Source: Candidatus Lokiarchaeota archaeon (GTDB lineage: Archaea; Asgardarchaeota; Thorarchaeia; Thorarchaeales; Thorarchaeaceae). From it: a DNA stretch of 32,036 nt. Location of the stretch: positions 1 to 32,036 of the forward strand of contig WJIL01000081.1 in the NCBI GenBank assembly GCA_014730275.1, written 5' to 3'. Shown here piece by piece: positions 8,636-10,901 of this stretch; the first letter of the stretch is position 1, and every line of letters begins with the position of its first letter. Position numbers and translations under genes: made by a program. The notes under the pieces are model-generated. The model had not been told where the DNA came from and ran no database searches. It saw only the letters and a list, made by a program, of their open reading frames with translations.

Positions 8636-9431
8636 GTCTTGAATACAATTCAGGTTTTCTATCCTTCAGTACATGATTCCGTGTGGTAATCATCTTATTG
8701 TCGGCTTGACTTGGATCAATATCTGTGAAAGCAATCCCGGTTTCTTCTTCGTCAAGGGAAACAAGAACCTCTCCTCCTGGATTTGTTATTTGGGATTGTC
8801 CCGAAAATGAAACACCTCGCTCTTCTCCGATTCGATTAGCTGTAGCGGTGAAAATCTTGTTTTCAATAGAACGTGTAATCATAGCTTTCTGACAGAAAGG
8901 CAGAACCAAATTAGCAGGATGTAGTATCACCTGTGCACCCTTGAGAGCGAGAATCCTTGCTGTTTCAGGAAAAGCCCAGTCGAAGCAAATCATCATACCA
9001 TATCGAAAACCACGATAGCTAAAAACAGGTGGTTCTTCAAATCCGGCGGCAAATATGTTCAGCTCATTATCAAACAAATGGATTTTCCTGTATTTTTCAA
9101 GCATCTTTCCATTGCCAAACGCAACAGAAGTATTGTAGAGATTGTCACCGTCCTGTTCACACATCCCGGATACCACCAAAGTGTTTTCTCTCGACCATTG
9201 GCTGAGCAGTTGACACGTCTTCCCTCCTGGGATTTCTTCACTATTCATAAGTGCCTCTTTCCTGTTCTTAAAGACGTAACCCGAATTTGCAAGTTCGGGA
9301 AGGACCAATATGTCTACGTTCTCTTCCTCTGCTCTGTACAAAGCCTTCTCCATTCTATTGAAATTGGTGCTGGGTTCGGATACAACCGGTTCTATCTGCG
9401 CAACACCAAGTCTGATTTTACCTCCTGTCAT
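8610..9431 (-). CDS. Carbon-nitrogen hydrolase (nitrilase superfamily)
   Basis: A 273-residue cytoplasmic hydrolase of the nitrilase superfamily, which cleaves amide or nitrile C-N bonds through a Glu-Lys-Cys triad. The triad is visible: E46 in LVLPELANSGY, K116 in KYRKIHLFD and C149 in GMMICFDWAFPE. The length and the HPANLVLPF and GQSQITNPGGEVL segments fit the N-carbamoyl/omega-amidase-type branches, but the exact substrate cannot be fixed. The ATG at 9431 is the first start. A GGAGGT inside codons 3-4 is not followed by a usable start and seems fortuitous. It is convergent with, and overlaps by 26 bases, the MazG-like gene. Confidence 0.9.
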   Translation of the reverse strand: MTGGKIRLGVAQIEPVVSEPSTNFNRMEKALYRAEEENVDILVLPELANSGYVFKNRKEALMNSEEIPGGKTCQLLSQWSRENTLVVSGMCEQDGDNLYNTSVAFGNGKMLEKYRKIHLFDNELNIFAAGFEEPPVFSYRGFRYGMMICFDWAFPETARILALKGAQVILHPANLVLPFCQKAMITRSIENKIFTATANRIGEERGVSFSGQSQITNPGGEVLVSLDEEETGIAFTDIDPSQADNKMITTRNHVLKDRKPELYSRLTAPGEDP

Positions 9432-9516: not shown

Positions 9517-9563
9517 GGCCATATTCCCCTCATGTCATATACGTAACAAAGGGTGATTCTGTA

Positions 9564-9677
9564 ATGTCGGAATCAAAGGAATCCAAGCCTGTTGTTGACG
9601 AGAGCTGGGATGATGTGCCTCTTCCTGAGGAATATTGGGGTGATGAGTTCGAAGATGATGAATTGGACGTGTGGTAA
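9564..9677 (+). CDS. 37-residue acidic, tryptophan-containing microprotein
   Basis: A micro-gene running from ATG to TAA with an excellent archaeal ribosome binding site, GGTGAT at 9552-9557, 6 bases before the start. Of 37 residues 15 are Asp/Glu and 2 are Lys. Trp is at 15, 25 and the very last position (37), with Tyr24 and Phe29. The first third is Ser/Lys-rich (MSESKESKP), the rest acidic-aromatic (ESWDDVPLPEEYW, DELDVW). It should be disordered when free. In composition it recalls small acidic adaptor proteins such as eukaryotic Sem1/DSS1 and acidic C-terminal tips that bind partners; this is resemblance, not shown homology. It ends 17 bases before the stop of the basic protein on the other strand. 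Confidence 0.65.
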   Translation: MSESKESKPVVDESWDDVPLPEEYWGDEFEDDELDVW

Positions 9678-9694
9678 CCCTCCGAGTTGCAACG

Positions 9695-10525
9695 CTATCG
9701 ATTTTTCATTATGTGCTTCTTCACTCTAAGAAGCCTGTTGTAGCTGCTGTGAATTTCTTTCTTGGCATCTAGCCCCCATATTCTGTAAAGAAGACTATAT
9801 TTAATGCGAAGGCGCCTTATCTGATTTCGCAAACTAGAGTAGGTAGATTTCAAGCTCTCTAGCTTGGTCTCTTGTTTCTTAGATCGTTCCAACAATCCCT
9901 TGATTCTTCTATTGAGCCGTTTCAGCTCGGTTCTTGATGCAGACGAGACCAACTCTTCAAGCACGTCATTACTTCTTGTTCCGAGTGGTCGAAGTCTTGT
10001 CCAACGAGAGACATAGGCGCCCGCCTCACGAAGGCTTTCGGATATCTTCTTTGCATCTAGTAACCCAAGTGTGCTCGCCTTTGAGTAGAAGCGTTTGTAG
10101 TCCTTTTTTCGTAGTTGAGGGAATAGAAGAACACCTCTGTGAATCTTGAGAGCTCCAGCTTTTTCACAGAGTCTTTGAACCTTCTTTCTTTGCTGCACAG
10201 TTGATTTGGGAAGAGAATATGCTACGATTTTGTATGCGAGAAACTCGTCTGGGGTTTCGAGGTTGTTTCCCTTTGGGATTTGACGAGCTCTGGTGAAGAT
10301 GATGTGGGTCACTTCTGACAGCAGCTTTTTGAGTTTCTTGGGATTTCCCCGCACAATGTACACGCCCCCTTCCTGTTTCTTGAGCGCGAAGTCAGATTTG
10401 AGAAACCTGGCTAGCTTTTCGTGTTGTTCCCCCTTTTTCGGAATGAGAAGGAGGTAGCGCTTCTGCTTACGCTTGGCTTCAATAGCTTCTCCATCATCAG
10501 CTATATTGAAATCGTAGACTGTCAC
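9695..10525 (-). CDS. Basic protein with ChrB N-terminal/Cas2-like domain
   Basis: A 276-residue, very basic protein (roughly 67 Lys/Arg against 27 Asp/Glu). Residues about 22-85 form an alpha/beta unit (RYLLLIPKKGEQHEKLARFL ... GGVYIVRG). Residues about 97-145 read AYKIVAYSLPKSTVQQRKKV ... GALKIHRGVLLFPQ, which resembles the start of the ChrB N-terminal domain, a ferredoxin-like fold related to Cas2 and PaaX: YSLP, then Arg-rich helix, then GA-x-x-x-x-x-GV-x-x-x-P. After REAGAYVSRWTRLRPL comes a long basic coiled coil (about 195-276), also as in ChrB. No chromate transporter (chrA) is nearby, so chromate sensing is unproven; a nucleic-acid-binding role is plausible. The start is GTG 10525 with a weak upstream site. 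Confidence 0.7.
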   Translation of the reverse strand: MTVYDFNIADDGEAIEAKRKQKRYLLLIPKKGEQHEKLARFLKSDFALKKQEGGVYIVRGNPKKLKKLLSEVTHIIFTRARQIPKGNNLETPDEFLAYKIVAYSLPKSTVQQRKKVQRLCEKAGALKIHRGVLLFPQLRKKDYKRFYSKASTLGLLDAKKISESLREAGAYVSRWTRLRPLGTRSNDVLEELVSSASRTELKRLNRRIKGLLERSKKQETKLESLKSTYSSLRNQIRRLRIKYSLLYRIWGLDAKKEIHSSYNRLLRVKKHIMKNR

Positions 10526-10805
10526 GGCACTATTCTTCCGCTCTTTGTCTGTTTAAACACTTTGCTGTAGATATTCCTCTTCGCTTACCAATAGTGACAA
10601 TTAGGGGAATTTCTCATATTTCCTAATCCATGTTTTAAATGGTTATTATTTGTTTTACTGTTGCTTTCGAAGTGGATAACTCTTATTTCCTTTCTATTAT
10701 TTCATCTGTGTCCTTATTCGATGGTTTATTCATTCATAAATTTGCTTTCCATCGACTGTATGTTTAACTCAATCGTTGGAGGGCCCTCTTCCTAGGTGAA
10801 AAATC
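10526..10805. other. AT-rich divergent intergenic region
   Basis: These 280 bases separate the basic protein (-) from the 31-codon acidic gene (+). I see no further gene. AT-rich elements that could be TATA boxes include ttttaaat near 10633-10640 and cataaattt near 10735-10743. The latter would give a leader of about 40 bases to the acidic gene. Confidence 0.4.
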
Positions 10806-10901
10806 GTGATCCGAATCGACGAAGATTGGGACAGTGACGATTGGGACGAAGATGACGACTGGGACGAAGATGACGACTGGGATGACGACGACGATTGGTA
10901 G
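10806..10901 (+). CDS. 31-residue Asp/Trp-repeat microprotein
   Basis: A micro-gene from GTG to TAG preceded by AGGTGA (10794-10799) at a spacing of 6 bases. After MIRI the peptide is almost only Asp, Glu and Trp: 21 of 31 residues are acidic, one is Arg, and Trp occurs at 8, 13, 19, 25 and 31, i.e. every 5-6 residues and at the C-terminus. Two exact copies of an 18-base unit encode DEDDDW (10845-10862 and 10863-10880), and a third diverged copy ends the gene. The downstream bidirectional terminator supports a transcript. It is likely disordered, and could bind a basic protein, metal ions or an aromatic-binding pocket; the basic protein at 9695-10525 is an obvious candidate partner. The antisense Ser-rich frame has no such signals. 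Confidence 0.6.
   Translation: MIRIDEDWDSDDWDEDDDWDEDDDWDDDDDW
10845..10898 (+). repeat. 18-base tandem repeat encoding DEDDDW
   Basis: gacgaagatgacgactgg is present twice without change (10845-10862, 10863-10880). A third unit (10881-10898) differs at synonymous and conservative positions and encodes DDDDDW. This points to growth of the gene by unit duplication. Confidence 0.85.

Follow-up and report, generated by a model that had tools for sequence, protein, structure and literature searches.

The window analysed here, a stretch of 32,036 nucleotides taken whole, comes from the 3.64-Mb genome assembly of a Thorarchaeota-like Asgard archaeon and encodes two microproteins rich in acidic residues and tryptophan on either side of a strongly basic protein, hereafter BASIC (Table 1). 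Peptide 2, MIRIDEDWDSDDWDEDDDWDEDDDWDDDDDW, has Trp at positions 8, 13, 19, 25 and 31, the last being its C-terminal residue, and peptide 1, MSESKESKPVVDESWDDVPLPEEYWGDEFEDDELDVW, has Trp at positions 15, 25 and 37. Both small frames described in the original prediction are present with their ribosome binding sites, Trp-ended and with 6-nt spacers, and its estimate of about 67 Lys/Arg against 27 Asp/Glu in the protein between them is exact (67 against 27 in 276 residues, pI 10.5).

Asgard archaea are the closest known relatives, or sister lineage, of eukaryotes. We searched 228 Asgard genomes together with phage, plasmid and viral collections, and what lies at this locus appears to be a gene type that has gone unnoticed, some 25-40 codons long and encoding an acidic Trp-rich peptide beside a strongly basic protein of predicted nucleic-acid-binding fold. 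No Pfam or NCBIfam model covers the acidic Trp peptide class and no report of a peptide-BASIC system was found in the open-access literature searched; a class of genes of this size, conserved across several Asgard families, appears to have escaped description.

Table 1. Features of the window and microprotein genes of other Asgard loci.
Feature	Sequence region	Position	Strand	Description
Ribosome binding site GGTGAT of peptide 1	window	9552..9557	+	spacer 6
Peptide 1 (second acidic Trp microprotein)	window	9564..9677	+	37 aa, ATG start, TAA stop at 9677, convergent with BASIC
BASIC	window	9695..10525	-	276-aa protein; two ferredoxin-like domains (second Cas2-like) and C-terminal helices (model); net charge +40
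BASIC-peptide 2 divergent intergenic region	window	10526..10805	.	280 bp
TTTAACTC, possible promoter element of peptide 2	window	10763..10770	+	weak in window: TTTACTC variant with an extra A
Ribosome binding site AGGTGA of peptide 2	window	10794..10799	+	spacer 6
Peptide 2 (acidic Trp microprotein, AP)	window	10806..10901	+	31 aa, GTG start, TAG stop at 10901
MTAP and nitrilase genes	window			neighbourhood of peptide 2 and BASIC
Lys-rich microprotein	L035	7006-7083		MAKKKPAAKKKKAEPKAAESKKKKK
Lys-rich microprotein	L042	8607-8702		further example, among others
Lys-rich microprotein	L044	9521-9616		further example, among others
Lys-rich microprotein	L045	9776-9865		further example, among others
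Lys-rich microprotein	L088	7569-7643		further example, among others
Lys-rich microprotein	L091	6168-6260		further example, among others
Lys-rich microprotein	L150	5021-5089		further example, among others
Second unlinked acidic peptide	L044	3847-3930		from a set of genomes including G017 and G222
Second unlinked acidic peptide	L096	7361-7441		same set
Second unlinked acidic peptide	L139-L142			same set
Glu-rich Trp microprotein	L148	5459-5632		further Asgard families
Glu-rich Trp microprotein	L170	5048-5200		further Asgard families
Glu-rich Trp microprotein	L171	5189-5281		further Asgard families

Coding signatures of the acidic peptides

Compared with its copy in the sister genome (G001), peptide 1 of the window shows eight synonymous changes and one non-synonymous change (pS 0.41, pN 0.011), against 0-1 synonymous and 8-9 non-synonymous changes when the same DNA is read in its other two frames. 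The same comparison for peptide 2 gives two synonymous changes and one non-synonymous change, too few to be read alone; in other relatives the acidic peptide shows synonymous to non-synonymous counts of 7:2, 9:1 and 4:1, its Trp and acidic positions being retained while third positions vary freely. Two pairs of stand-alone peptides (L141/L139 and L139/L140) have an excess of non-synonymous change, one of them consisting of frames of different layout.

Upstream, a GAGGTGA-type site stands 4-10 nt 5' of the peptide start in nearly all Thorarchaeota relatives, and TTTACTC, exact or near, is found 34-45 nt 5' of the start in most of them (exact in 9 of 20). The divergent layout is kept in Thorarchaeota, with 190-321 bp from BASIC to the peptide start. 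The first 270 bp of the intergenic region are 95% identical to the sister genome, exceeding several neighbouring coding genes. The pattern W-[DE]3..W-[DE]3 does not occur in the rest of the window's genome.

Repetitive composition could point to a low-complexity, non-coding artefact, a possibility made negligible by the synonymous-biased change, the conserved place and the ribosome sites. Very short frames close to other genes might also act in cis, as a leader peptide or attenuator whose translation would matter and whose product would not. This is extremely unlikely: the gene 3' of peptide 2 is convergent in the window and in the relatives that share its nitrilase-MTAP context, the peptide genes come with ribosome sites of their own and with an element that recurs upstream, their amino-acid sequence is selected, and no Rfam match was found within the window. 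Gene order and selection led us to reject both readings.

That both frames are genes, as had been predicted, is borne out by synonymous-biased change and conserved sites. Their treatment as equals holds for gene status and fails for conservation, the class of peptide 2 being widespread and peptide 1 occurring in five Thorarchaeota genomes (G000, G001, and G007, G009 and G019 with loci L033, L038 and L039). In these five, peptide 1 carries the motif PEE[YDF]W and always lies convergent to BASIC, next to its 3' end; rarer than peptide 2, it is a second peptide of limited lineage range.

Pairing with BASIC and its modelled fold

A profile of the BASIC family (A1) identified 41 homologous genes in 39 of the 228 Asgard genomes, and a scan of genome contigs with the BASIC profile returned five loci. 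As the original prediction had proposed, the peptides belong with the basic gene: a short acidic peptide gene, usually Trp-ending and normally with a GAGGTGA-type ribosome site, lies near 38 of the 41 homologs, a count that includes one locus split between contigs C41 and C61 (G010), one read by hand (G219) and one with a partial gene at a contig end (G225). No linked peptide was found at the BASIC of G041, G042 (contig edge) and G056 (internal stop). Among 45 linked peptides, 32 end in Trp, the median charge is -18, and 21 are under 30 aa, so that the expectation that they would be too short for standard gene calling holds for many. Members of the class are recognised by their place, gene structure and composition, using thresholds set after examples had been seen. 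A profile of these low-complexity peptides recovers few of its own members and sequence homology among them is therefore not demonstrable; genome-wide protein or profile searches for them have almost no sensitivity owing to composition bias.

Acidic-Trp frames preceded by a ribosome site, scanned for strictly in 39 loci, number 35 at distances of up to 600 bp from BASIC and 4 across the other 401 kb (p about 7e-31), and the strict pattern (ribosome site, acidic run, terminal [DE][DE]W) was found in 20 of the 39 BASIC genomes against 3 of the 189 others (p 4e-15), one of these three matches clearly being no peptide; both p-values overstate the association because related genomes are counted as independent. 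Distinct gene contexts and duplicated pairs provide the stronger argument. The pairing persists through at least nine gene contexts and both orientations, the peptide being divergent from BASIC in Thorarchaeota and co-directional elsewhere (on the same strand and downstream in families f9 and f13). Where BASIC is duplicated, in G121 (L083 and L084) and G052 (L085 and L088), each copy is accompanied by a peptide of its own. Lack of conservation beside BASIC, or a dN/dS near one, had been named in advance as what would speak against the peptides; the comparisons were run and gave conservation beside BASIC and change biased towards synonymous sites.

Peptide and BASIC thus stay together over deep evolutionary distance and in varied surroundings, so that a joint function is very probable, and we place high confidence in a functional link between peptide 2 and BASIC. 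Sequence comparison shows purifying selection on the gene of peptide 2, which forms a conserved pair with BASIC in several Asgard families.

All scored copies of BASIC are basic, with net charges of +11 to +41 and pI values of 9.9-11.6. The AlphaFold model of the window's copy (overall pLDDT 83) consists, in order, of a disordered start, a ferredoxin-like domain of moderate confidence, a second ferredoxin-like domain and three long helices. Modelled alone, domain 2 adopts a Cas2 fold (pLDDT 87), and Cas2 chains were its top Foldseek matches in the PDB (best E 7e-4, prob 1.0), while the best PDB match of the whole model was E. coli PaaX (E 8e-4, low TM-score). BASIC had been called ChrB-like, a label that is weakened by these results, the modelled fold being of Cas2/PaaX type: ChrB models of Pfam and NCBIfam gave no match to the window's BASIC and none is among the listed Pfam families of 21 relatives. 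A motif V-Y-S-x-P ... L-x-P resembles one of ChrB. The predicted Cas2-type fold of domain 2 likens BASIC to PaaX and Cas2, and one BASIC relative scores 22.6 bits against the PaaX_M cut-off of 24 (PF20803), with the match in its N-terminal domain. Unlike PaaX, BASIC is modelled as tandem ferredoxin-like domains followed by a helical C-terminal part, and its model contains no PaaX-type N-terminal winged helix, the N-terminus being ferredoxin-like after the disordered start. The BASIC profile gave mostly coiled-coil chance matches among sequences of solved structures, and a viral structure library yielded nothing convincing. Taken together, modelled fold and charge suggest that BASIC binds nucleic acid.

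The patchy distribution (39 of 228 genomes), the many gene contexts and the duplicated pairs would also suit a toxin-antitoxin-like or selfish module, in which a harmful BASIC would be neutralised by the peptide. We consider such a module unlikely, as the genes are mostly divergent and form no operon, and relatives of BASIC were absent from the phage and plasmid records and viral contigs searched. Moreover, the catalytic Asp of Cas2, expected at the end of strand 1, is not conserved in the domain 2 alignment, where the position, placed by inference, is mostly S, R, Q, N, T or H.

Acidic and lysine-rich microproteins beyond the pair

Acidic Trp peptides also occur in Thorarchaeota genomes without BASIC (G016, G227, G031, G025, G006, G026 and G027). 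Two of these, G016 and G227, are estimated to be 98% and 99% complete and keep the peptide with no BASIC found, so that absence of BASIC is probable; at the nitrilase-MTAP site, G026, G027 and a second locus of G028 carry an acidic Trp peptide without BASIC. Acidic peptides thus exist in genomes lacking BASIC, which therefore cannot be their sole partner, and the original view of BASIC as the sole target is weakened.

The main rival explanation is a general acidic-aromatic adaptor with several basic clients, comparable to DSS1 or the SSB tails, for which BASIC would be one client or a co-regulated neighbour. It draws support from the stand-alone peptides of BASIC-less Thorarchaeota and of many other Asgard families, from a loose acidic-Trp pattern in 34 genomes without BASIC, and from a second, unlinked peptide by metallo-beta-lactamase and GNAT genes in G017 and G222. 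Against it, nearly all instances of the most tightly defined gene structure, with a ribosome site, an acidic run and a terminal DDW or similar, come from BASIC genomes, and the stand-alone peptides of other Asgard families are longer and may be unrelated to those of Thorarchaeota. On balance we regard the adaptor as a plausible but rather unlikely reading.

The second, unlinked peptide is a feature of one Thorarchaeota genus, where it lies between metallo-beta-lactamase-fold and GNAT genes with or without BASIC in the genome. In another Asgard family, stand-alone acidic Trp peptides (L154, L155, L166 and L167) are encoded near deoxyhypusine synthase and pyruvoyl arginine decarboxylase genes. 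A polyamine link, suggested by these genes and by MTAP and nitrilase in the window, was dropped, since it does not recur across families. Glu-rich Trp microproteins were seen in further Asgard families; those of L170 and L171 are syntenic, and no BASIC was detected in the fetched regions of L148, L170 and L171. Viral contigs gave 71 matches to the peptide pattern, the few in-frame ones being unlike the Asgard peptides.

Some loci encode a further microprotein, rich in Lys (MAKKK...KKKKK, about 17-31 aa), 33-146 nt from the acidic Trp peptide and on the same strand. It was found in loci of Thorarchaeota and of families f9, f13 and f20, the last without BASIC; in G017, for example, locus L044 has the acidic peptide at 9339-9422 and the Lys-rich one at 9521-9616. 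The window has no such companion, and the original prediction accordingly did not include it. A Lys-rich pattern was unusable over the 228 genomes, where control matches are similarly common in AT-rich genomes, and the test was made at the level of loci: a strict scan (frames of 15-40 aa, no more than 200 bp away from the acidic peptide) gave 20 cases, all on the same strand, against 2 elsewhere (p 6e-24), and a relaxed search added one (L093). In loci of other Asgard families (L150-L152, L160, L161 and L164), a single chain begins with a Lys block and continues with an acidic-Trp block, as if fused.

Acidic and Lys-rich microproteins could in principle form a polyelectrolyte pair, a disordered complex or condensate like a miniature of histone H1 and prothymosin alpha, that would recruit BASIC. 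The same-strand clustering and the chains joining both blocks are in line with such a pair, which is nevertheless highly improbable: neither the window nor its relatives of nitrilase-MTAP context have a Lys-rich frame next to peptide 2, and a purely electrostatic complex would not need Trp.

Possible mode of action

The acidic peptide class is assigned to no known family, and in its physics it resembles DSS1 and the H1-prothymosin pair. DSS1 has been described as a DNA mimic towards RPA (PMC8394001), and histone H1 and prothymosin alpha form a disordered, high-affinity charge complex (PMC7661507). Like DSS1/Sem1, a proposed nucleic-acid mimic or adaptor, the peptides are short, acidic, Trp-containing and probably disordered; they share with it an acidic segment with a conserved Trp, which any acidic Trp peptide would have and which is thus not discriminating. 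DSS1/Sem1 has a C-terminal amphipathic helix, whereas the peptides mostly end inside the acidic run, usually at Trp, are about half as long, and have as partner neither a PCI nor a BRCA2 protein. The suggestion that they might belong to DSS1/Sem1 found no support, as none of the 228 Asgard genomes exceeded the PF05160 cut-off, in a search of low power for short peptides, and sub-threshold matches lay off the peptide loci. With the H1-prothymosin pair the system shares oppositely charged partners and, where the Lys-rich microprotein is present, AKKP-like lysine motifs; here the chains are far shorter, the acidic partner is Trp-rich and there is an additional folded basic protein. The acidic C-terminal tips of SSB also combine an acidic run with a terminal aromatic residue, whereas the peptides are stand-alone genes, with several Trp, unattached to SSB.

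The best explanation, which we hold with moderate confidence, is that a disordered acidic-aromatic peptide binds the positive surface of BASIC, competes with nucleic acid and so controls BASIC. The peptides are most likely disordered nucleic-acid-mimic or chaperone peptides. Adjacency and opposite charge suggest that peptide 2 may well bind BASIC directly. Asp and Glu would then substitute for phosphates and the regularly spaced Trp for bases, and by rivalling DNA or RNA the peptide would control, shield or deliver BASIC, as prothymosin alpha does with histone H1 and as has been proposed for DSS1 with RPA; mimicry as the mode of action is put forward tentatively. Peptide 1 would represent another version, particular to its lineage, and the Lys-rich microprotein, where present, a counter-charge titrating the acidic peptide.

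If this explanation is correct, the physical mode, an acidic disordered mimic or chaperone, would be a known one, and the genes and their arrangement would be new. If the peptides indeed regulate a nucleic-acid-binding protein by mimicry, the sister lineage of eukaryotes would possess regulation by acidic disordered chains like that of DSS1 or prothymosin. More speculatively, the genes could belong to an unrecognised Asgard regulatory system of charged microproteins. Its members would be the acidic Trp peptide, the tandem ferredoxin/Cas2-fold protein, taken to bind nucleic acid, and in some lineages the Lys-rich peptide; the disordered peptides would gate the protein's access to DNA or RNA, and the system would be an archaeal parallel to the acidic disordered chaperones known from eukaryotes. 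Because the genes come as a pair, a direct test would need no more than synthetic peptides and a single purified protein. The observation that underlay the original prediction is confirmed and its interpretation partly supported. Read by eye, peptide 1 resembles the P-x-E-x-W...VW spacing of DSS1, a likeness that we note as a lead only.
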